From NCBI RefSeq assembly GCF_026151205.1, contig NC_087076.1, positions 1,125,692 to 1,189,691 on the forward strand: a stretch of 64,000 bases of DNA. The letters run 5' to 3'. The notes beneath the pieces are model-generated. The model was not told the DNA's origin. It did not search any database and saw nothing but the letters and a program-made list of their open reading frames with translations. Positions 1,321-34,845 of the stretch are shown in pieces. The DNA is from Bolinopsis microptera. Its lineage: Eukaryota; Ctenophora; Tentaculata; Lobata; Bolinopsidae. The translations under genes were made by a program, and so were the position numbers. Position 1 is the first letter of the stretch, and each line of letters opens with the position of its first letter.

Positions 1321-3321
1321 ATGATATTTAAACAAACTCCCGACCAACAGGAAGCATGTCAAGACTAACATCAACCAGCTAAGACGTAAGATCACAAAGA
1401 GACTCAGAGATATCAACAACCGCAGTGCTGACACACTCGTCGAAGAGATAAACAACACAGACGACGCCCGGAGATACTTTGGAGCCTCTAAGATACTCGC
1501 CAAAGGATATGTTAGACCAGCTCTAACCGTCCACAACTCTGCTGGGAATATCGCAGGTACTAATGAGGAGAAAGCGAGGATTATTAAGGAGTACTTTGAA
1601 GCTGAGTTCAACGACGCTGATGAGCCTACCCTTCCTGCCTTCCTTGACCCCCCATCTAGCCTTAACAGTCCCATCACCGTTGCAGAGATAGAGAGAGCCA
1701 TCAGTAAACTCAAGTCTGGTAAAGCAGTGGGTATTGATAAAGTTCCTGGCGAGGTCATGAAAGCCCTGAACAACCCCCTCCTTCATGAAGAGCTAGCTAA
1801 AGTGTTCAACGAGTCTTTCGAGAAAAACATTCACATTGAAGCAATAGGAGCAGGCATCCTCACACCACTGGCTAAGCCTGGTAAAACTCGCGGCCCAGTT
1901 AAGTCGATACGACCATTGACCCTGCTGAATGTTTCTAGAAAGATCCTGTCACTGATAGTGCTAAACAGAATAGAGAGAGCTGTGGACAACTTCACCGGAC
2001 CGTTCCAAGCTGCCTACAAAGCTGGCAGGAGCTGTGCCGACCTAGTTTGGGCACAGAGCATGCTCATATCTGTAGTAATGAAGAAGGAGTTTGAATGGAA
2101 CAAAGTGAGTATCGACATGTCAGCTGCCTTCAATACCATCCGCAGAGGTACAACAATCAGACTACTAAAAGCTGCAGGATGCTCCAGAGACGACCTGAGG
2201 CTTGTACAATACCTCATGGCTAACACCACTCTAGTAGTCAGAGTGTGTTCTACTGACTCAGAGATGTTCTCTTTCAACATAGGAGCCTCCCAAGGAGACA
2301 GCACAGCTGGTAAATTGTTTACCCTCAATCTAGCTGGAGCTGTAGTGCACATAAGAGCAGTCCTCCCCTCAAGACCCAACCCTCCGATAGCCGATAACCA
2401 CATGCCTCTTGAGTCCGGCTATTCAGACGATGTAGAAGAGATTGGTGAAGATATGGAGGAGTTACAGGATATCTTTCAGATCTCCAAGAATATTCTCAGT
2501 GAATGGAGTCTCTTTGTCAATGACACAAAGACAAAGTTTACTAGAGTATATTTAGAAGAAGTTGGTGCCTGTGACGAGTGGGGTAATGAACTAAGAGGAA
2601 AAGAGGAGTGGAGAAACGAGACGCTTCTTGGTACTAAGCTTGGATCAGAGCAGGATGTTACTAATAGAATAAATAAAGCTAACTCTGCCTTCTGGTCATT
2701 TGACAAGCTGTGGTGCCAGGGATCAGAGAGGAGTCAGATAACTGAGAAGAGAAAGATCAAACTCTACGACTCACTAGTAGTATCAGTGCTCCTGTACAAC
2801 TGCTGCTGCTGGGCCGTACCTCAGCATGTTCTAGAGTCTGTAGATGTTGTTCAGAGGAAGCACCTCAAGCGCATCCTACACATCTATTGGCCTAGCTCAA
2901 TATCTAACAAGGCCCTCTACGCTCGTACCCAGACCAGGCCCCTTTCCGAGAGAGTGGAAAAGGCACGGTGGACAATGCTAGGTCATGTTCTACGCAGTGA
3001 CAACGACACGCCTGCCTACCAGTCTCTGTTATTTGCTACACTAGGATGTCAAACACTAAAGGGACGAGTGGGTAGACACAGGACTAATTTGTATGATATT
3101 ATTATGAAAAAGGACCTATTTAAGAGACAAATTTATTTGAAAAATGAAGATGATTTTACCAACTTAGTGAACTTAGCAAGAGATAGAGTAGGATGGAGGA
3201 GTTTATTTACTTTGAGACATATTGAACGAATGAGTCTTCGTAAGCGTAAATAGGCCAGCACTTTGCTGAGCCTCTTTAGGTGCTCTTTTGTTTATAAATG
3301 TTATTATATATGATATTTAAA
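1321..3321 (+). mobile_element. 5'-truncated non-LTR retrotransposon with 12-bp target-site duplication
   Basis: The 12-mer ATGATATTTAAA occurs at 1321-1332 and again at 3310-3321, exactly flanking the reverse-transcriptase segment 1333-3309. That is the signature of target-primed insertion. The element starts inside its coding region, as is usual for LINE copies, and ends with a short AT-rich 3' untranslated tail without an obvious poly(A) run. Confidence 0.85.
1334..3253 (+). CDS. Reverse transcriptase ORF of the truncated LINE (640 codons, no start)
   Basis: The frame is open from the insertion boundary to the TAG at 3251-3253, so about 640 residues of reverse transcriptase remain without a stop. 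Recognisable parts are the fingers motif (SGKAVGIDKVPGEVMK), the palm region with SIRPLTLLN, the ASQGDSTAG segment in place of the usual PQG, and the catalytic loop YSDD at about 2418-2429 instead of the more common FADD. The C-terminus (GRVGRHRTNLYDI, then WRSLFTLRHIER) is typical of endonuclease/reverse-transcriptase polyproteins that lack RNase H. The APE-type endonuclease that should precede it is lost to 5' truncation. The long intact frame and perfect target-site duplication suggest a fairly young insertion. The clade is not certain. Confidence 0.85.
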   Translation, partial: KLPTNRKHVKTNINQLRRKITKRLRDINNRSADTLVEEINNTDDARRYFGASKILAKGYVRPALTVHNSAGNIAGTNEEKARIIKEYFEAEFNDADEPTLPAFLDPPSSLNSPITVAEIERAISKLKSGKAVGIDKVPGEVMKALNNPLLHEELAKVFNESFEKNIHIEAIGAGILTPLAKPGKTRGPVKSIRPLTLLNVSRKILSLIVLNRIERAVDNFTGPFQAAYKAGRSCADLVWAQSMLISVVMKKEFEWNKVSIDMSAAFNTIRRGTTIRLLKAAGCSRDDLRLVQYLMANTTLVVRVCSTDSEMFSFNIGASQGDSTAGKLFTLNLAGAVVHIRAVLPSRPNPPIADNHMPLESGYSDDVEEIGEDMEELQDIFQISKNILSEWSLFVNDTKTKFTRVYLEEVGACDEWGNELRGKEEWRNETLLGTKLGSEQDVTNRINKANSAFWSFDKLWCQGSERSQITEKRKIKLYDSLVVSVLLYNCCCWAVPQHVLESVDVVQRKHLKRILHIYWPSSISNKALYARTQTRPLSERVEKARWTMLGHVLRSDNDTPAYQSLLFATLGCQTLKGRVGRHRTNLYDIIMKKDLFKRQIYLKNEDDFTNLVNLARDRVGWRSLFTLRHIERMSLRKRK

Positions 3322-17905: not shown

Positions 17906-18687
17906 TAATGTGCCATTTTAAAGGCAAACCACCCCATGACCTAAATTGTATTTTCCAGACGGCTGAAAGTTCTAATGACATGGCTTACCGGTTAACAGTG
18001 CAGGTTTTCTAGTTGTCATGTCATGCTAACTGCTCCAAAGTATTGCTGTCATTTGCTTCTACCAAGGTCCAAACTGATGAAGTTTAAACTGCTTTAACTT
18101 CCTGCATCTAGCGCAATTACCATGCTGATAATTTGGAGTATTTAGTTGGGAAAGTAGAGAATTCTACATTGGCAGCAGTTGAGCGGGTGTGCATTATTAG
18201 ATCTAATAATTAAATGTTATATTAGCCAAGTAAAAATGCTGCCTGGGAAGCTACTGTATAACTATGTAATATTCTGTTTTATATTTCACGTGGTCATAAT
18301 TAAATCTTGACGACAAAATATACAAAATTATGTCATACGAGAGCAATGGGCAAGTTTTAAATTCTCAGGAATCTGAATGTACACTCAAGTGACTATGTTG
18401 TAATTATATTCATGATAATAACAATCTTAAAATCACATGATCGATCAATTTATGTCTGTCAACGCCTGAGCTCAATCGTGGTTTGCTCGTCAACTGGTAA
18501 AAGTCACGTGTGTTCACGACATCCAACAGTATAAATATATGAATTTTATATATTTGTGTAGATTTTTCGCTGAATTATTCTTGTAAAGACTTCCTCAATA
18601 AATTCGAAACCACAGTTGCCAATCAACATTTTTTAAAGCTGTCAAAGTATTCACTAGTATAGGGACCGTTTAGATATTATCTTAGAA
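17906..18687. other. Non-coding stretch
   Basis: AT-rich; nothing recognised. Confidence 0.4.
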
Positions 18688-19317
<630 letters not shown>

Positions 19318-20899
19318 TAATTTCCGAGCGGCTTAATCAAGAAAACGGTAAGAGTTACGGGACTGGTTTTTTCGGTATAGTTTCGACAAAACTCTGACGA
19401 AACCAAATGAATACGGTATTTCAAATTGGTCGGTGGTAAATGGTTTAATTGATGGTTTTGTACCACAAATGTGACATAAATCTTTTTTTCTCCCTCCTCG
19501 CTCTCTCTTCCCATTACTGCATATTATGTAGCGTTGGTACATGAATCATAATTAGGTTATACTATAAGTTAATACTATAAGCTTATTAGGGGGGATAGCA
19601 CTCATTGCGGTCTGTTTGGACTGTAGAGAGAGAGAGAGAGAGAGTTCATACTTTCATACGACAATGTTATGCGTGTTTTCAAATATAATAGGCGGGTTTA
19701 TACTTTTGCATTTCCACTGCGATAGTGAAGTCCCGGCCGTAGGCACGGGTTACACTAGTGTTAATATGATTTTGCAGATTTTAAACCCCCACTTCCCCTT
19801 CTGTCATATAGCTTTTTGTATAAATAATATTAGCATTTCCTTCTCCTGCAGATCTGCAGATAATATGTAATATGATGTAATATAACAATTTTGAGCGCTG
19901 TTTTTCATCATCATGGCTAAGTTCAGAAATAATACCAAGTACAAATGGGTAGAAAGCAGTTAAACTTAAGCAGTATTAGTAATCGGAAAGTTAAAATCTA
20001 AACACAAACAAATCATATGTTAAAATAGTACTGAAGTTAGATAACACTCGATGCTTTAAAATTAATGAACGCAATAATAAATAATTAGATAATAATTAAA
20101 ATAGCCCTTCCATTTTGGCACCATTTACCTACATAATCAAATCATGTTGGTTGTGCAATCAAAAATGTGTTTAGATAAATTATGTTGTTTCTACTTAATT
20201 ATGTATGCTTCATTTATTTGGGTACTATTGCCAAGGAAATCCCTTTTTAAAAGAACAAATTTATGAATCGTCACGTGTTATTGCTGTTAGCCGTTATGTA
20301 GAAACAACATTGTTATTATGAGGCTCCTTCTTAGTTAGGCTCAAGCCAACAGAAGCTCTCTTTTGAAGGAGCTCTATAAAAGATCTCATAACGAGAGGGA
20401 TATTCTTTATTTCACCTTTATTTCACCTTCGACAGTGACCACCTGTCCGCAGGAAGCGTTAGTTTATGTAATCCCTGTAGTTAGTGTAGTTGATACCATG
20501 GCTGATGGCACTGAACGCGGACTGGCTCCCCCGCGAATCACTGCCAAGGATTAATCTGACGAGAGCGTGGGTCTGATAAGATATTGTTAGGATTGAACAT
20601 ATGCAGCCTCTACTTCGTAAGTTTAATCATGCTAATCAAATTCCTCCGAAACTCTGTCAAGTTAAGTTGTTAAATCGCATTTGAAACATCACCTGATCCA
20701 CGTCATGTCCAATAACAATGGGTAAGACTTGTTAATTTCACCGTTCCCCGGTTGAACAAAGCACTTAATTGACTTTTCTGCGGCCAAACGAATTAGGTCA
20801 GAAAAATTTGAACTTGCTAGATTTTGAAGATAAGCTATAAGGTAGAGTTAGACTGAAAGAGTCATTTCCACAAGATTTTCGGCGATTTCAAGTTGAAAA
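19318..20899. other. Upstream region of the LPMO-like gene
   Basis: No coding region recognised. A GA run lies at 19626-19643. A TATA-like TATAAAAG at 20375-20382 could mark a transcription start for the gene beginning at 20900 if its 5' untranslated region is about 500 bases long. This is not supported by other evidence. Confidence 0.3.
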
Positions 20900-23800
20900 A
20901 TGAAGTGTTTATTGTTAATGGCAGGTGTGCTCTCGGCAATAGCTGCGCACTCCTGGATGTCATGTCCCCCCTCTTTTGATACAAGTCCCGGACGAGGTGG
21001 CAACACAGGTCAGATCCCCTCCTTGATTCGACCATGACAGGGCACGTGATGATGGGCCTGTAATCTTGTGATTAAACATTTGTGTGTCACTCAATTGTTA
21101 TGCCGTCTACAGTAGTCTCTCAGAATTTGTCATTGGATTTCTAATTCGTCCCGATGACAAATTGCAAAAACATTTGCAACCCGAACCTATAGTTTTATTA
21201 AGAATCATAACTATTATCAAGAGTCCAGGTAAATATACTAAACATTTTATTTGATCTCAATACAGTTGGCCCCTGTGAACGGGAGGGTAGGAAGAAAATA
21301 GTGACGAATGTGAAGGCTGGAGACAGACTTAAGGTCGGCTGGACCAGCAATAATCACGCCGGGGGATGGGTCAGACTTTCTCTCGTACCTGAAGGTAGGC
21401 TATTATCCATCTACACCAGTCCATACACTGCCATGATGTGGACATTTGCATTGAAAAATGATGGGTTTTAAATTCAAAAGTTATAATTTTAAACCCATTA
21501 AAAACATATCTTAGTAATAATTATCATTATGCCAAAATCAGGACAACATAAGTGTACGAACACTTTGAGCAGAATGTGCTTAAGGTAGTGTGTTATGGGC
21601 ACGATGAGAGAAAAGGAAAGACAAGCTATGGTGACTGTGTTCATCCTTGCAATGCAAGGAAGGGTTGCGAATACATGGCCAATAAATATGACGGCAATAG
21701 GTTAGTCTGAAATGTGTGTTGATTTGAGATTTAGATCTTTCACCTTATATTTACCTTATATAAGGTTAAGAAAATGGATATAAATTCTAATCAATATGAA
21801 TAAGTGGGACTACCTGTGTCCTGTTACATATTAAACTATTTAAATGAACAGCAAACATAATACCAAAAACTCAGGTACGATACAACCATCAAGATTCCCT
21901 ACAATCTGCCGGAGGGTGTGTACGTTCTCCAATACATGAGTGCTATGAGTGCTCACAAGACTTTCTATTACTCCTGTGCTAGAATCAAGGTGACCTTACC
22001 ATTATCCTTTTAAGAATGACAACTCAAGATTTCATCATATCTAATTATCATTAAATAAATACATATCAATACTTCAACACGACTTTCACTATCCAAAAAT
22101 CAGATTTCAGGGGGAAAGCCGGCTCTGCCTTGCAAAAGAACCGGTTTGGCTCCAGTAGCATACGGCTGTATGAAAGGTATGGCAGTACCTCTTTCTAAAT
22201 ATGAGAAGGACACGAAGATGGGTAATTTCTGTTTCTCGACATCTGGACTTGGGGACCAGGTCAGATTGCCAGATTATCTAACTTCATTATTATCCTCAAT
22301 CACAGAATCTCTTGAACATGTTTAAAAATGTGGTTATTGTAAGATAAGAGCTCCCATTTTGTTGCTGTTGTACTGTTATAGTTTTATCTTTGTATACGTC
22401 GAGGTCTGAAATAAACCTATAACAGGACGCTGATATAAGGAAAGTGCCAGTAAACGCAGACTGTGATCCTAGAATCACGTGTCAGTTGAGTGTCCAGTAT
22501 AAGAGATGTATGGAAGCAGACAATAAAATGAAGGACATTACAAACGCATCAGATCCTAAACAAGTCTGTTCTGGGGTAAGTTCCACAAAATATGGTTAGT
22601 TTAGTCTGTATTCCAAATCATGTTATTGGAAGTGTGTAGAAAAATCAAAAAATATGATTTAGCGTTTAAACGTTTTGAAGGCTGCAAGTAAAGCTCAACC
22701 GACAACCACCAAGAGAACTATTCCCCCGTATGGCAGTGGGATGGCCATTTTGACGAACAGATTGTACAATATAGACATTAGTCGACTATCATATCTGACA
22801 CCTTCGCAATATTCTATTAATCGAATATTACCAGAATGTAGTCCCCCGTGGCAATCATTCAATATTAGCTAAGTAAGTGACAAATACAGATCAAAGGAGC
22901 GAACGGTTTTGAAATACGTAACGACGGTTAAGTTTCCCTCCAGGTTGTGGAGTGGTGTAAATAGTCTCGTTACACAACTCTGCAATCGTTTATTGAGCAA
23001 GCGGTAGCACCGTACAGCTTACAAAAACATAATAGCCAATAGTAATGATGCAATAGTAACACAGCAGACTGAATGCAAAATCTTCCTTGAATGGTATAAA
23101 CTATAAAGTGATGTGTGTTCGTTGGTTACCATGGTAACGATGAAATATAAAAGAACCGTAACTTACCGACCGTTCTATTTTAGCAAATTAGAACCGGTCA
23201 ATCCTCTTACAGTATGTAAGGCCCCTCCAGACCTCATTTATCATTAGACTGACCTCGCAGGAAGTAAGGCCCCTCCAAACCTCATTTATCATTAGACTGA
23301 CCCCCCCCCCCCCCCCCCCAGGATGTAAGGCCCCCACCGGAACCCACGTGTAACGATGGCAAAAGGAACAATGGTGAGCAGATGGTGGACTGTGGAGGTC
23401 CCAACTGTGACGCCTGCTACGAGGAACCCACCGAGCCAGTGGATGAGAGGATCTACTCGTGAGTATTCTTCCTAGGAGCTCTTCAGCTCTTTACACACTT
23501 TTAAGCGAACGAGCTTGGACCTACTTTGATCTTTCATGTGCCCTCAAATTTTCGAACATAGTTTTGCGATTTCATGAAATTGATCGTTCTGATCTGGATC
23601 AAAGGGATTCCTCTTTTAATATGCAAATTTGTCTGGATTATAAAATACCAGAATGTAACTTGTCGAACCGTGTGATATTAGAGTATTTTAATTTAGCATT
23701 AGTTATAGTTGGTAGCCTACGTTTAAAAGGAAATCACCAGCACTACGAGAGAGTGCTGCAAAATCAACAGAGCAATAAATCAACTCTTTTAGAGCGGCTC

Positions 23801-25099
23801 TCCAAATATCCAAATAGAGACTAATAGTTTTTTAATCGCTGTAATCTGCCTTGAAATACGAAGGGGATCGATAAATACACGAGACCGGGGAGTCGAACTG
23901 ATGCATTACAAATTAAAGAGTTTAAAATCTCTCCTTCTGAGCAGTTTAAGTTAGGCGACTTCATTTAACTCATTTAAATCTATTTACGTGGTTAACTTTA
24001 CGGATCATATATTCTTGTATTCTTTGGCAGAGATCTGAAGTACAAAGAGAAGGTTCTATTAGAGCGAGGGATGATGGAGGTGCGGGCATCTCTAGTTGTT
24101 AAGAAGGCTGCAAACGACTGGCGATTTGCCATTTTCCTGGATAAACCAGTAAAATGGACTCATTTTTGGAACTGCAAGCTCATCAGTGTCAACAAGTATA
24201 ACACAGTAAGTTTCTTTCAGATCGTTAGATTTCACGCAAAAGGATTGGATAGATGGAAATATCAATTTGAGAGCGTCTGTAACGATAAAGAAGAAAGCTA
24301 ATGATTGGCGCTACACCATGTTCTTCACTAAACCGGTCGATATAAGATCTCATTGGGGCTGTAAGGTTATCAGTGTCAATGAGTTCCAAACTGTAAGTTA
24401 TAAATGTTCCTCACGTTCATCAGCCATAATTGTCGCCCTATAGCTACCATTCAATTGAGATTATATAGTCCAGACAGTAGCCTCATTTGCAAAAATTGTT
24501 TTATCAAATTGAGATAACTTGATGAATAATATTGTAATTGTCAAATAAATCTGAAGGTCACTAATCTAAATCCCAAACTGACACAAACTATGTCCCAATC
24601 GTTTCCGATAAAAAGCTTGACACACATCCTCAGTTATTTCATATAAAATATTTGTGATAACTGATAACCTTAACAATTTCTGCAGATCTGGACATTTGGT
24701 CCCATGCCATGGACCAAGAAAGTTAAACCAGGACAGAAAATAAACCTTGGATTTAACGGCAGGTTCGAATCTGACGGAGAGGCTCCACAAACCGTGACCA
24801 AATCTTTCGTCGGTAAGCTTTATAAAACACCACTAACATTCTTTACCTTAAACGAAATTCATATCATGTTGTGAAATTCTCGATAATGTTAAAACTTGAG
24901 AGGATTGCCACAAACCTGCAAACCGGTTATTTGTTGTAAAATATTAGCGGGTGTAACGTGAGTTGTTGCAGTTAACCCGGGTACCATTTTAACATAGAAA
25001 CCATTCCACATTAATTCTGAAGAAGGCGGTTTAATCATAATTCGTAACTAATATTTAATTCGCTCAATTTCAGAATACAAGCCCGATGAATTGGAGTAA
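20900..25099 (+). CDS. Secreted LPMO-like copper-enzyme candidate with C-terminal CBM2-like module
   Basis: Exons: 20900-21008, 21266-21394, 21553-21700, 21875-21989, 22104-22259, 22426-22575, 23322-23458, then one of 24031-24205 or 24221-24392, then 24686-24812 and 25074-25099. All phases agree. A signal peptide (MKCLLLMAGVLSAIAA) is predicted to leave His as residue 1 of HSWMSCPP. A second His lies in TSNNHAGGWVRLSL, and an aromatic precedes Cys in FYYSCARIK. This arrangement (N-terminal His, internal His, axial aromatic) is the copper histidine brace of lytic polysaccharide monooxygenases, which oxidatively cleave chitin or cellulose outside the cell. A Cys motif follows (CNDGKRNNGEQMVDCGG.NC..C), then a CBM2-like domain with WNC, WTFGPMPW and KPGQKINLGF. 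The acceptor of exon 3 has a weak pyrimidine tract. I cannot assign an AA family; a non-catalytic chitin-binding role is possible. Confidence 0.75.
23211..23340 (+). repeat. Tandem duplication of the exon-7 acceptor region
   Basis: The start of exon 7 (AG then GATGTAAGGCCCCC) is preceded by two upstream copies, TTACAG/TATGTAAGGCCCCTCC and GCAG/GAAGTAAGGCCCCTCC, each followed by ACCTCATTTATCATTAGACTG. A run of 19 C precedes the true acceptor. Three tandem candidate 3' splice sites result. Confidence 0.8.
24031..24205 (+). CDS. Alternative exon A of the CBM2-like module
   Basis: A 175-base exon that enters in phase 2 and leaves in phase 0 at GTAAGT. It encodes about 58 residues including RASLVVKKAANDWRFAIFL and KWTHFWNCKLISVNKY. 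The Trp residues (DW, KW, FW) sit where CBM2 domains carry surface and core aromatics. It is homologous to exon B. Confidence 0.85.
24221..24392 (+). CDS. Alternative exon B of the CBM2-like module
   Basis: A 172-base exon with the same entry phase 2 and exit phase 0 as exon A. It encodes about 57 residues including RASVTIKKKANDWRYTMFF and RSHWGCKVISVNEF. From RAS onward roughly half of 42 positions are identical to exon A. Its acceptor (TTTCTTTCAG) starts five bases after the exon A donor, so the intron between A and B would be 15 bases. Confidence 0.85.
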
Positions 25100-25997: not shown

Positions 25998-27594
<1,597 letters not shown>

Positions 27595-29149: not shown

Positions 29150-32100
29150 CTACTCTGTCTTTTCTTCTTTTCCTGTATTTGACACAACTTCTCCGGTTTC
29201 TGCAACTGTCCCTTGCCATATTCTATCCCATCCAGCCCGTAGATAGCATGCCACAAACTTGAATACCTTCACCACATAATCTACGATTGTGTTCTCGTAA
29301 AGCAGTGGATTAATTACCGAGTTGATGGGAAGAATTGCGATGGTGAAAAGAGGGTAGAGCTCCGTGGCATCGTAGGTCCCTCCGAAGTGGAGCCAGCCCG
29401 CGACGGTAAACGGCAGCAGGCAGAGGAAATTAGTCACCACTATGGCGGTAATTTTCCTCTGGAGATTTCTGTTTCGTATCTTGGCACCTTTGTCGTCGTT
29501 GCTGGCCACGTTCTTGGCAGACTCGGCGGTCCGGGAGTAGATAAGGACGTAGCAGATGGCGATCACCACGCCACATGCTAAATTCACAACGGAAACTCCG
29601 AGACTGAACCACTTCTGGGAATCCTCTCTGGTCACCAGGTACTTGAACACACACACACCGTCATTGCCATAGAAATGGATGGTCTTCCCGGTAACACCTG
29701 CATAGGAGTTTATTGAATCGCGTGAGAACAGCCACTAAAAGTAGATATTATTATGGAAGAAGGGATCATAAAAAGTTATATATATTGTTAGTCAGCCACA
29801 ACTGTCAGTAAAACAACGCCTTGACTTCAAATTTCGGTAAAATATACTACCTTTACAGTCATCCTCAATAAATGTAATAGATTTGTAGTGTTGTAATTAG
29901 TTTAAAACTAAACTAATACATTGATTTACTCAATTTGAAACTTACCACCATAATCGTTCGAGAACATCTCTCCCACTAACATTCTGATGTTCTTCCAGGA
30001 TAGCTCCCTAAAGTGGAGTCGACCAAAATGTGCTTTAAGGATGTTAAAGTGGGTGACCTTATCAACTGAGGCAGTAAAGATTGGATGGTCATGGTAATAG
30101 AGGCCATTCACAAAAAAATCTTCGAAGGCCGGGACAAGGGGAATAACTGCACATGGGATTGCCATTGCAAAAACAGTTGCTACGGTTGCAAACACTTTCA
30201 GCCTTTCATATCGTCCATCGTCCAGTCTCTTCTGGATCATTTGTCCAAAAGTAGACACTCTAAGAATACTAAGAGCGCACATAGAGAAAAGAGAGAGTTG
30301 GTATGCCATGTTGTTTACCACGCCAAGGGCAGCGCAGCTCTTGCTGGAAAGCCACAAGTATTTGTTTCTGCAATAGGTGTCCTTGTAATACAAGTCAGTG
30401 GACGCCAAGACCAGCAGATAGCACCCAACCACCGTGTCACTTAGACCAATTGTCGCAATCAGCGCATGGTTCTTTGCCACATTGCTCAGGTCAGTTTGCA
30501 ACAAATTTCTGAACGACGTCGCCATGACGACGCAGTTGAAAGCGACTGCAGATGCCCCCAAAGACCACGCTGACATTCTCAGTGCGTAACTTCCAATGAT
30601 GCGTTTACCTTTAGAACAATCAGAGTTACATTCGTCTTCAAAGTCCCGGCAATCCTCGAAGCCGTCACATTTAGAAGTTAATGGAATGTGCTCCTTGTGG
30701 GCGGGACAGTAGAAGCTGTTTCCGCAGTTTGTTTCATCACTCTCGTCACCGCAGTCGTTCACTAAGTTGCACACCTTATCATACGGGACACATTGATTAT
30801 TGTCGCAGGGAAACAAATCGTCTCCATATCTGTTTCCCGACATCTTGACCATGAGTGAGAGTTTGGAGTTTTTGGACATCGCATAAGACTTTTTTTGTAC
30901 GTTAACGCAACTGTCTCGTTCGATGGGTTTAAGCACACATTCGGTGTTGATACAGCGATCGGAGCAGCTCAGATAAACCAAAGCCTCTCCGAAGGTATGG
31001 GTGCAATCTACCGGTGCTATGGGCAAGTCAAGGTATGTTATTGAAGCAAGGACAGACCTACTAGGACAATCTTGGTAAAATGGAAGCCTCTTTTGACAGG
31101 AACTGACATCCATTTGAAGGTACTCAAGACCTTTAATGCAATGAAGGAGCACCTTGTGAGATGTTTCATACTTTAAAACATTGTTCATGGTTGTAGCCTG
31201 GTTCCTAGACTCCATGCACACATCATTCTCCCTCCCACATGTGTTTATTCTATCACACATCTCAAAAAACTGGATGAACTTCACTTGGCCCACCTGACCA
31301 CACAAATAAACTTCCTCACATATCGTGCCTATCTCACCATATCTTATGAGATCTTCTTCAAGCCCACACTTGTCCCACGAGTTCACATTTTCATCTTTGC
31401 CGTCCACGCAATCTACAGTTCTGTCAACAACCCATTTAGCCGGTATTTTCAACAGTTTACTACTCTTGTATGGAAATCTCCTGACACAGGTGCTGTCGAA
31501 AAGTTTTCGGCAAACGGTTGCCTTCTCGTCACCGCCCCCCGGACAGTCTTCAAAACTGTTGCACAGTTCAGTTTTGTGGATGATGCAACCTCCTTCCGCA
31601 CTAAAACAGGCGTCATCATAGCCGTCGTCACACTGTTTGTAACCCTTACAGATCGCTAGCTTGGACACAAATGCTTCTTCGCCTTCTATAGGACAGGAGA
31701 GACCTATCCTACTTTCATCGTAACAGTTTATCTGTTCTCGCCCGTCTGTACAGATCTTAGCTGGATTTTCAGGAGTAGCTGGTACGGCGCATATCTGGCT
31801 GGGGTAAAGGTTACGAGTAACGTCTCCGTTCATACACTGACGTGTGACCTCTTTTGGGTCGCATCGCTCATCTTCCCCCTCATAACAGTCCTCCGTCCCA
31901 TCACAGAGGCTATTAGCGTAGAGATACTCTTTGAGAACCTTACTTCCTCTATTGTTCATAACCTTGCATTTCAGTCCGTAGATAACGCCGTTACAATCCC
32001 CTTCATCGTCACACAGGGGACAGTCACACTTAAGATCACACACTTTAGATGTATGGATTTTTTCCTGAACAGTTCGTGGTCCTATTGTCTGAAAGCTACA

Positions 32101-33246
32101 AGAGTAAATGTCATTAGAACCAGTTGAGTCGATCAGAAGGCGCTCCTCAGCTCCAATAAACTCTGTCGTATCTGTGTCGCAGAAAGCCTCGTCAAGAATT
32201 GTATTTTGGCAGTCGTAACGACGGTTGCAGTCTATATATTGTAGCACCTGTGAGCCAAATTGGGGGATAGTCATTCCTAATTTCACTGCACCATCACAAA
32301 TAAAAGTTCCGCATAGCAGGTCATTCCCCCGGTGTGTGGTGAATCCTTCACATCCATCTATTCCACAGGCCTGAAAATATGTTGGCTCATTTTCGCAAAT
32401 TCTATCTACAGCAATTTGCTCACAAAAGTTTCTATTCCCAGATGAGACGATGCCGTAGTACTCATCCGAAAGCATGCATTTGTACCAGGTTATGTCGTCA
32501 AAGATGCAGAATGTCTTCCAATACTGCAAGTCTAACGTCCCAGATCCGATACCTGCAGTCTGACAATCCTTGAACTCTCGAACCTCAGGTCTAAAGCTTG
32601 TGATAGGGGATTTAATTGAAGCATCTATAGGAGAGACAAATTTTATCCAAACGATGTTCTTTTCAAGCCAAGTATTAGTCATATCGCAATCGCCAGAGAA
32701 ATTATCTCGATCACTCAAATAAATAGAATAGATTTCCTTTCCATCTTTGGAAACTTTAAGGTTCGGATCGGACGGATTGTAATCCATCTCAATTTTCCAC
32801 TCAATGGCTTTACTCCATGACATAGAATCGATAGGGCGATCTATAGGTTTACAGGATTTCAAGGACATATGTATTGTGGGGAGTGGGAGATCAAATACTA
32901 TTTCAATAAATGAAACATATTTTAAAATAGCAGAACCCTGAAGGGGAGTGAAGAACTCGATGCGGCCAGTCAGGTAAGATCCAAACTTGGCATTTGTTTT
33001 GAATATCAAGGTATTGTTATTGAAATCAAACGGAATCAACACATCGTGTGGAGCCTCTTTGAAATCTGAAAAATTCAAAAAATTACTTAATATTTGAGAC
33101 TTTAAACAAGCGACTAAGATTTGCCCAACTTTGCATAATCTGTTGTAAAATTAGATGAAATTCCTACATTTTAAGAACTAACTTTTTGAAAGAATTCCTT
33201 CTAAAGTAGCCAAGCTAGTGATGAGAATAAATAATATCATCAGCAT
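29150..33246 (-). CDS. LDLa-repeat rhodopsin-type GPCR (complete, 1243 residues)
   Basis: Three exons in consistent phase: 33246-33183 (signal peptide MLMILFILITSLATLEG), 33065-29946, and 29697-29150. The first ~170 residues form a region I do not recognise. About ten LDL-receptor class A-like Cys repeats follow; the clearest is CDNNQCVPYDKVCNLVNDCG then DESDETNC. The seven-helix region starts near SYALRMSAWSLGASAVAFNC. TM3 ends LSILRVSTF, so the usual E/DRY is LRV. TM6 contains LCLLPF and TM7 ends INSVINPLLYEN (NPxxY). Overall it resembles GRL101-type receptors (large LDLa ectodomain plus class A helices) but shows no leucine-rich repeats. Ligand unknown. The C-terminal tail is Glu/Lys-rich. 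Its promoter lies head-to-head with the lectin/Ig/FN3 gene. Confidence 0.9.
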
Positions 33247-33439: not shown

Positions 33440-33635
33440 GTGATAATCAATATAATCACGTGATAATCTTTAAGTCATCTGCCCTTGAACCTAATATTAG
33501 CACAAATTATTCGGTGACAATGAAACGAGCAAGCGACGCGGGCACGTTTTATTGTAACACCGTTATTATTCCAAGTTGGGGAGAAAAATCAGCGATCAGC
33601 GTGCAACCCTCTAGGCACAGGACTTTATTTTGTCA
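33440..33635 (+). CDS. Ig-domain half exon (source copy of a local duplication)
   Basis: Encodes NISTNYSVTMKRASDAGTFY followed by CNTVIIPSWGEKSAIS, the typical end of an Ig domain (DAGTFYC). A possible acceptor is CTTTAAG near 33472. A clear donor is not visible; GTGCAA after SAIS is possible. It may be an upstream exon of the lectin/Ig/FN3 gene, whose next exon begins at 35323 beyond the inserted LINE. A near-identical copy lies at 38516-38806. Confidence 0.45.
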
Positions 33636-34845
33636 ATCATGCTTCTTTTGGACTACAGCAAGGCCTTCGACATGGTTGACAGCAGTATTCTTCTGAGAAA
33701 ACTTGAGCACTATGGAGTTCGGGGATTGGCTTTATCTTGGTTTCACTCATATCTTACCGATAGAGAGCAATACGTGAGCGTCAACAACTGCAAGTCCTCT
33801 CACCTCAAACTTAACTACGGAGTACCACAGGGCTCCATTCTCGGACCAATTCTGTTCATAATTTACATCAACGACCTTCCTCAGATTAGTAATTTAGCTA
33901 AACATATTTATTTCGCTGACGACGCAAACCTAATAATAAGTACAGATACATTTGAACAACTTAATGCAACGGTGAATGAGATTCTGACTTTGATAATTGA
34001 TTGGGCTACTAATAACGGGCTTAAATTAAATGCTAGCAAAACTAAATATATGATCTTTACAAATAAGAAAACTGAGGATATAGAAATTTACATGGGAGGT
34101 GAACGATTAAAGCAAAGTGATCACGAAAGGTTTCTTGGCGTGATCATTGATACCAAGCTAAATTGGGCCCACCACATTAGACATTTAGCCACTAAAGTAT
34201 CTAGAAATGCGGGCATACTCTACAAACTCAAAGGCTCTGTACCTAACAAAGCACTCAAGTTGATATACAACAGCTTTGTTCAGTCTCACTTGTACTACTG
34301 CTGCACAGTTTGGGGAACAAGATCGCTAAACTCTGTTAAAAGAGTCTTCTCGGCCCAGAAAAAGGGCATTCGCGCTGCAGATAACCAATACCACCGCTAT
34401 TTTTATGACAAAGATCTGAACAGTACACCTTCACACACAAAGGAAATTTTCAATAAACTAGAAGTATTAGCTTTACCGAACGTGATAGCTAAATGTATAT
34501 TATGCTTAAATGCACAAAGTTTATTCTAACACTGCACCACCAAATATTATAAGAATGTTCACTGTTTCAAACTTAAACGCACCTAGAAGAGAACCTGAGT
34601 TCTTTGCAGTACCATTTAACCGTTTATGTAATTCAGACAAGAGCATTTCTTACATTGGGCCTAAGTTATATAACAAAACAGTCAACATTATTAACAAGGA
34701 CATAAAATATGTCACGACTTGCCTACAAGACAAATTCCTAAATTCATTCAAGTCTACAGTCAGCAAGCATGTGCTTACAGCACAAGCACTTAACCCGGAT
34801 GACAAGGACTGGAACAACTCAAATTTCGTACTTTTAGAAATTTAA
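33636..34845 (+). pseudogene. Reverse transcriptase of CR1/jockey-type LINE, frameshifted
   Basis: Encodes MLLLDYSKAFDMVDSSILL, NYGVPQGSILGPILFIIYIN and the catalytic IYFADDANL, followed by the LGVIIDTKLNWAHHI motif; these are reverse-transcriptase motifs 3-7 of the CR1/jockey group. The frame ends at TAA 34527-34529 (CLNAQSLF) and resumes in another frame at SNTAPPNIIRMF up to 34845, so there is a single frameshift. The endonuclease and the N-terminal part of the RT are missing. Confidence 0.85.

Follow-up and report, generated by a model that had tools for sequence, protein, structure and literature searches.

Within the window, i.e., the whole 64-kb stretch of DNA that was analyzed, a gene on the + strand (20900-25099) carries two adjacent, homologous exons, here called A and B, which are best read as mutually exclusive, the choice between them being hard-wired by the geometry of a 15-nt spacer; judging from the sequence, we place the probability of this reading at a little under four in five. 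The evidence consists of the geometry of the sequence, its reading frames, the homology and constraint between the two exons, and a marginal domain match.

Gene architecture and the A/B exon pair

The gene model and its translation assign ten coding exons to each transcript, all on the + strand, and either isoform comprises, in order, a signal-like segment, His17, an LPMO-like domain, a Cys-rich linker, and a CBM2 module made of A or B plus a shared exon C. Exon 1 (20900-21008) holds the start codon, the signal peptide, which would be cleaved just before His17, and the beginning of the LPMO-like domain. The domain continues in exon 2 (21266-21394), which contains His67 in the motif NNHAGG, in exon 3 (21553-21700), where the frame is kept only with an AAG acceptor and the boundary is the least certain of all, and in exon 4 (21875-21989), which contributes the FYYSC motif; the gene model then places exon 5 at 22104-22259 and exon 6 at 22426-22575. 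The Cys-rich linker is encoded by exon 7 (23322-23458), the 5' partner common to A and B, with an acceptor that follows a C19 run and a GTGAGT donor in phase 2. Exon A (24031-24205, 175 nt, DLKYKEK...NKYNT) and exon B (24221-24392, 172 nt, SLDFTQKDW...NEFQT, with the donor GTAAGTTA) each encode the first half of the CBM2 module, the second half of which, including the Trp72 equivalent in PMPW, lies in shared exon C (the ninth, 24686-24812); the last coding exon (25074-25099) contains the stop codon. Between A and B lies the spacer (24206-24220, 15 nt, GTAAGTTTCTTTCAG), in which the donor of A is fused to the acceptor of B. The remaining introns of the gene measure 114-762 nt. It was also observed that 23205-23334 carries three near copies of the exon 7 acceptor together with the beginning of that exon (CAG plus GTAAGGCCCC, at spacings of 48 and 61), the C19 run preceding the last of them; the upstream copies could be alternative acceptors, with the length of the C-run setting the frame.

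Both A and B are entered in phase 2 (after 23458) and left in phase 0 (into 24686), and it was indeed found that the coordinates, phases and spacer given for them in the first-pass annotation were exact. Being adjacent, homologous, nearly equal in length and identical in phase, they have the properties of a tandem-duplicated exon pair, and each is furnished with a CAG acceptor and a GTAAGT donor. When the donors of exon 7, A and B (GTGAGT, GTAAGT and GTAAGT, respectively) were compared with the U12 donor consensus, none was of the U12 type, and incompatibility between U2 and U12 sites was thus rejected as the mechanism of exclusion.

Five exon combinations were then translated in silico. The A-only and B-only products were open throughout, at 423 and 422 amino acids, respectively, while the frame was lost in the A-B join, in the form that retains A, the 15 nt and B, and in the form that skips both exons, which is frameshifted. 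In the two forms containing both exons, translation stops at a TAA within exon B (24299-24301, + strand), 91 nt upstream of the donor of B; the earlier claim that joining A to B or reading through the spacer would break the frame is thereby borne out, and so is the broader one that geometry and frame together prevent productive double inclusion. A stop codon that lies far enough upstream of an exon junction sends the message to nonsense-mediated decay, and a transcript retaining A, spacer and B would be expected to meet this fate.

The rarity of the spacer was examined at two levels of stringency. The pattern GTAAGTYYYYYYCAG occurred once in the 64 kb, both strands included, and in none of 100 shuffles. 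The looser pattern GTRAGTNNNNNNCAG also occurred once, against 1.36 occurrences expected per window, and was present in 82 of 100 shuffles, so that the bare donor-to-AG spacing was rejected as a rarity in itself. Where the spacer departs from chance is in being located between homologous exons and in having a pyrimidine tract.

Homology and constraint between the two exons

Alignment of A and B gave identity at 25 of 57 residues when one gap was allowed (23 of 57 without it), and tblastn returned 50% identity over 46 amino acids (E 1e-13). The pair reached a Smith-Waterman score of 135, and none of 2000 shuffles exceeded 53; the homology originally described, with about half of 42 aligned residues identical, is confirmed. 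When tblastn matches in the window were admitted at E values up to 10, the next-best one resembling A or B had an E of only 0.78, and the idea of a third exon copy within the window was dropped for lack of a significant match. Pattern scans for relatives retrieved four matches among viral contigs and 11 among genome contigs, none of which was a relative.

Over the last 45 codons, the two exons differ at 18, 11 and 26 first, second and third codon positions, respectively. The corresponding NG86 pN/pS, which is an average over both exons, was 0.48 (bootstrap 2.5-97.5%, 0.28-0.82), with 13 of 2000 replicates at 1 or above; dS ranged from ~1.9 for these codons to 4.0 for all 57, i.e., near saturation. 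Neutral decay was simulated for comparison. At d=1.9, the frame remained open with AG and GT in place in just 0.04% (A) and 0.07% (B) of 20000 runs, the relics retaining a mean of ~8% amino acid identity; at d=0.5, 1.7-2.0% were still open with AG and GT. In view of the constraint and the rarity of intact neutral relics in the simulation, both exons have probably been preserved through the greater part of the period that followed the duplication.

These results bear directly on the rival explanation that survives best, although we regard it as unlikely, namely that a single exon is in use, the other being a duplication relic whose function was lost recently and which still looks intact. It is to be noted that the acceptor of B is limited to a short pyrimidine tract and a branch point in A or its donor, and B could thus be poorly used; moreover, the pN/pS, as an average of the two exons, is compatible with recent loss of one of them. 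Against this stand the combination of near-saturated synonymous divergence with a pN/pS of 0.48, the near absence of simulated neutral relics with frame and splice sites preserved, the retention of both GTAAGT donors, and the fact that A and B, each joined to C, complete a CBM_2 match as fragments. Overall, the description of A and B as two homologous, constrained and interchangeable exons, each with both splice sites, is supported.

RNA structure around the exon pair

A second explanation, which we consider improbable, is that the exclusion is set mainly by RNA structure of the docking and selector kind or by trans-acting repressors, the short spacer being incidental. In its favor, a perfect 13-nt inverted repeat pairs exon B (24362-24374) with the branch region upstream of C (24660-24672), and shuffling the region 400 times gave one as long in 11 cases; the local duplex of the actual repeat was calculated at -22.2 kcal/mol, the corresponding part of exon A reaching -9.8 and the next-best unrelated one of 235 26-mers tested -10.6. 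A 24-nt repeat of 71% complementarity additionally pairs the spacer with exon B. However, the folding of 23990-24440 was not in excess (z -0.11, with 39 of 100 shuffles as good), and none of the long duplexes in six segment pairs was unusual, the best being equaled in 36 of 150 shuffles and that between exon B and its downstream intron in 82 of 150. A strong structural switch around A and B was rejected on these grounds, and the geometry by itself already forbids the joining of A to B.

The spacer, the branch point of exon B and steric exclusion

The first-pass annotation had argued that 15 nt is too short for any known spliceosome to remove. This argument does not hold, since 15-nt introns are annotated in Stentor, where they make up 8173 of 8806 annotated introns, and where 8005 of the 8806 have their branch adenosine at position 10 (PMC9505925). 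The ultrashort human introns reported to be spliced measure 43-65 nt (PMC8363638). The adenosines of the present spacer occupy positions 3, 4 and 14 only, i.e., they belong to the donor and the terminal AG, and the spacer thus contains no adenosine capable of branching and would not form an internal lariat by the normal route. The Stentor precedent nevertheless allows a further explanation, that the spacer is a true tiny intron, or else is retained so as to yield a truncated protein without a complete CBM or to act as a decay switch, to which the defined stop 91 nt before the donor of B would be suited. We consider this very improbable: a branch-capable adenosine is lacking, removal of the spacer leads to a frameshift, and the other introns, at 114-762 nt, do not make the gene look like one from a tiny-intron genome, while retention, which may occur, leaves two constrained homologous exons unexplained. 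Equally hard to credit is an assembly artefact joining exons from two paralogous genes or haplotypes, as a misjoin would hardly leave an exact donor-then-acceptor in the correct phase, and the window has no other significant match to A, B or C.

Returning to mutual exclusion by spacer geometry, the lack of a usable adenosine in the spacer leaves exon A and its donor as the only places for the branch point of exon B. Candidates within 60 nt of the B acceptor were ranked by a simple weighted yUnAy score, distances being counted to the last base of the acceptor AG. Three adenosines shared the top score of 5.5, namely A24201 in the motif GTATAAC (24196-24202, + strand, within the coding sequence of exon A) at 19 nt, A24182 at 38 nt, and A24162 at 58 nt; A24209, in the donor of A, scored 4.0 at 11 nt. 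Only A24201 among the top three had no AG in the interval from 12 nt downstream of it to the real acceptor, AGs being present at +5 and +9. Thus, the most likely branch point for B is predicted to be A24201, 4 nt before exon A ends. The motif should not be taken as a sign of selection, a notion that was rejected: when the last 20 codons of A were recoded synonymously at random (n=5000), 25% of the recodings scored as well under the AG rule, and 100% did so without it. When the homologous end of exon B was placed before the spacer, its branch score was 2.5 as against 5.5 for the end of A under the AG rule, and 4.0 as against 5.5 without it. Any branch point for B within or upstream of the donor of A would fall, by sequence, inside the donor-to-branch distance of less than ~50 nt at which steric exclusion applies, its exact position being a prediction.

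A sequence of events can be proposed as follows. A and B would have arisen when a single CBM2 half-exon was duplicated in tandem along with its minimal splice signals, leaving as a spacer the donor of A abutting the acceptor of B, with no adenosine for its own removal. The branch point of B would then reside within A or its donor, with A24201 as the likeliest site, such that U1/U6 on the A donor and U2 on the B branch point would compete for the same RNA, and the two exons would never be defined together. Should both be retained nonetheless, the stop in B would subject the message to nonsense-mediated decay. The product would be a secreted LPMO-like protein with A+C or B+C as its CBM2 module. 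Alternative use of the exons, the location of the branch point, the decay and a difference in polysaccharide binding are what we infer from the observed features.

The CBM2 module and what the exon choice would change

Assignment of the module to CBM2 is supported, albeit marginally. Against the Pfam CBM_2 gathering cut-off of 24 bits, the A+C fragment (111 amino acids) scored 26.6 and the B+C fragment (110 amino acids) 25.6; the full-length scoring, which covered isoform A, B being scored as the B+C fragment, gave 23.5, just under the cut-off. Exon C alone scored 18.9 bits, while exon A alone and exon B alone matched no Pfam family. The best PDB match of B+C was the CBM2a of Cellulomonas fimi Cex (1EXG, E 0.044), with which it shares the positions of Trp38, Trp54 and Trp72, although the match is weak and the module is here encoded by two exons, the first of them in two versions. 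For A+C, the best CBM2 structure was ChiC (2RTT, E 1.5), which an unrelated chain outranked (E 1.4). By these alignments, exon B spans the Cex positions Trp38 and Trp54, exon A that of Trp54, and exon C that of Trp72.

Cellulose binding by Cex relies on Trp17, Trp54 and Trp72, and CBM2a modules conserve a glycine at the third residue past the Trp17 equivalent (PMC5935602). At one aligned site, exon B reads W-I-D-G and exon A L-L-E-R-G, i.e., Trp in B is replaced by Leu in A. The Trp of WIDG may be the Trp17 equivalent; this correspondence calls for three residues inserted with respect to Cex, and the phmmer alignment begins past WIDG. Of the triad, the equivalents of Trp54 and Trp72 are present in both versions, and that of Trp17 would be present in B and replaced by Leu in A. 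The difference originally pointed out between the two versions was in the aromatic residues of KWTHFWNC and DIRSHWGC. Exon A does have an extra Trp and Phe there, near the Trp54 equivalent, but the ligand Trp itself is kept in both, and the Trp of WxxG in B against Leu in A appears to be the better, more telling difference. That the swap alters substrate preference is plausible, at about one chance in three.

The catalytic domain

The catalytic part was marginally matched by Pfam AA9 (28.3 bits, cut-off 27.8). With the full-length query, the best PDB match was the AA9-type chain 5nns (E 0.058); a query limited to the catalytic part yielded AA9-type chains at E 0.36 at best. Candidate AA9 features in the primary structure are His17 after the signal-like segment, His67, and FYYSC at 159. 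The NCBIfam model SCE4755, described as polysaccharide monooxygenase-like, was also hit, at 26.5 bits, far below its cut-off of 75. Pfam listed no match to LPMO_10, the model of LPMO family AA15, at E up to 1, a range in which the HMMER filters drop most matches above ~0.1. AA15 identity of the domain was rejected on this result; the LPMO label stands in the form of LPMO-like, on the marginal AA9 match. The domain is best called LPMO-like, marginally nearer to AA9/SCE4755 than to AA15, of uncertain family and putative activity. Animal LPMOs described in print include members of AA15 (PMC5823890), distant LPMO14-related matches have been noted in bivalves, corals and anemones (PMC5320794), and CBM2 appears on AA10 enzymes in the truncation table of one review (PMC10154629).

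Other features of the window

Frames for actin, GPCR, LDL-receptor-repeat, fn3 and reverse transcriptase sequences were found, and judging by these, the window appears to come from an animal genome. Two adjacent frames at 25998-27300 on the - strand match successive parts of the Pfam Actin profile and probably represent one intron-split actin gene. A 1074-codon open frame at 29926-33150, also on the - strand, matches the LDL-receptor class A repeat at three places and has an end that is GPCR-like by eye, and a 7tm_1 match (29150-29734) lies near it. The RVT_1 reverse-transcriptase frames at 1325-3253 and 33615-34529 probably belong to retrotransposons. A long (CA/TG)n and CAGA-type repeat array occupies 18654-19523, in which several frames on both strands appear open by eye. 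Rfam, at the gathering threshold, and a tRNA scan of the window found nothing.

Discussion

Alpha-tropomyosin and alpha-actinin contain sterically regulated mutually exclusive exons. The principle is thus already known, but a spacer that consists of nothing but a donor and an acceptor appears unusual. In humans, 57 of 629 clusters were counted as potential cases of steric exclusion with a donor-branch distance of <50 bp (PMC5740500), and the rule that a too-short intron prevents the joining of an exon pair is likewise in print (PMC6071210). A close parallel in design is OGDH, the exons 4a and 4b of which are tandem homologs with the downstream branch point too near the upstream donor; in the human gene, however, branching occurs 25-41 nt downstream of the donor, and the intron measures 118-131 nt in birds and mammals (PMC7969005), in contrast to the present 15-nt spacer with no usable adenosine and a branch point upstream of or overlapping the donor. 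Among exclusive cassette pairs, the middle intron was <100 nt in 18 of 60 human and 21 of 60 mouse transcripts, for which steric interference was proposed, although a 15-nt donor-acceptor fusion is not mentioned in the part of that report concerned with these introns (PMC2432081). The Stentor introns resemble the spacer in their 15-nt length and GT...AG ends, and differ in having an internal branch adenosine at position 10 where the spacer has none (PMC9505925). As to exonic branch points, a disease variant that creates a cryptic one has been described. On the enzyme side, the AA9 gene eglD of Aspergillus niger has a splice variant such that two LPMO-active products differ somewhat in catalysis, but the relevant portion of the report does not present the variant as an exchange between homologous exons of a binding module (PMC11031446). 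Among the titles and abstract openings listed by the literature search, which covered few subscription journals, no LPMO-type enzyme that chooses its binding module by splicing was found.

The arrangement also offers a hint of its own origin. The spacer begins with GTAAGTT, as does the donor flank of B, and a 47-nt direct repeat of 74% identity runs through both; the end of the spacer, TTCTTTCAG, resembles the acceptor of A, TTCTTTGGCAG. A single tandem duplication, comprising the exon with ~7 nt downstream and ~9-11 nt upstream, would give the arrangement at once, although these likenesses are no more than suggestive, since polypyrimidine acceptors resemble one another. We put forward, tentatively and at somewhat less than even odds, that the pair was born mutually exclusive by one duplication of an exon with ~7-11 nt on each side, with the branch point of B in the codons of A and two CBM2 faces as the outcome. 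If this is true, the codons of one exon double as a splicing signal for the other, and the protein alternates between a B face with the canonical Trp triad and an A face with Leu for the first Trp and an extra Trp and Phe beside the second.

If the switch is real, it would be the limiting case of steric exclusion, in which there is functionally no intervening intron. Exclusivity would then exist without an evolved regulator, the branch point being forced into coding sequence or a donor, and one duplication would be enough to create an either/or switch at the protein level. The enzyme would also be the first oxidative polysaccharide-degrading one known to have its binding module chosen by splicing.
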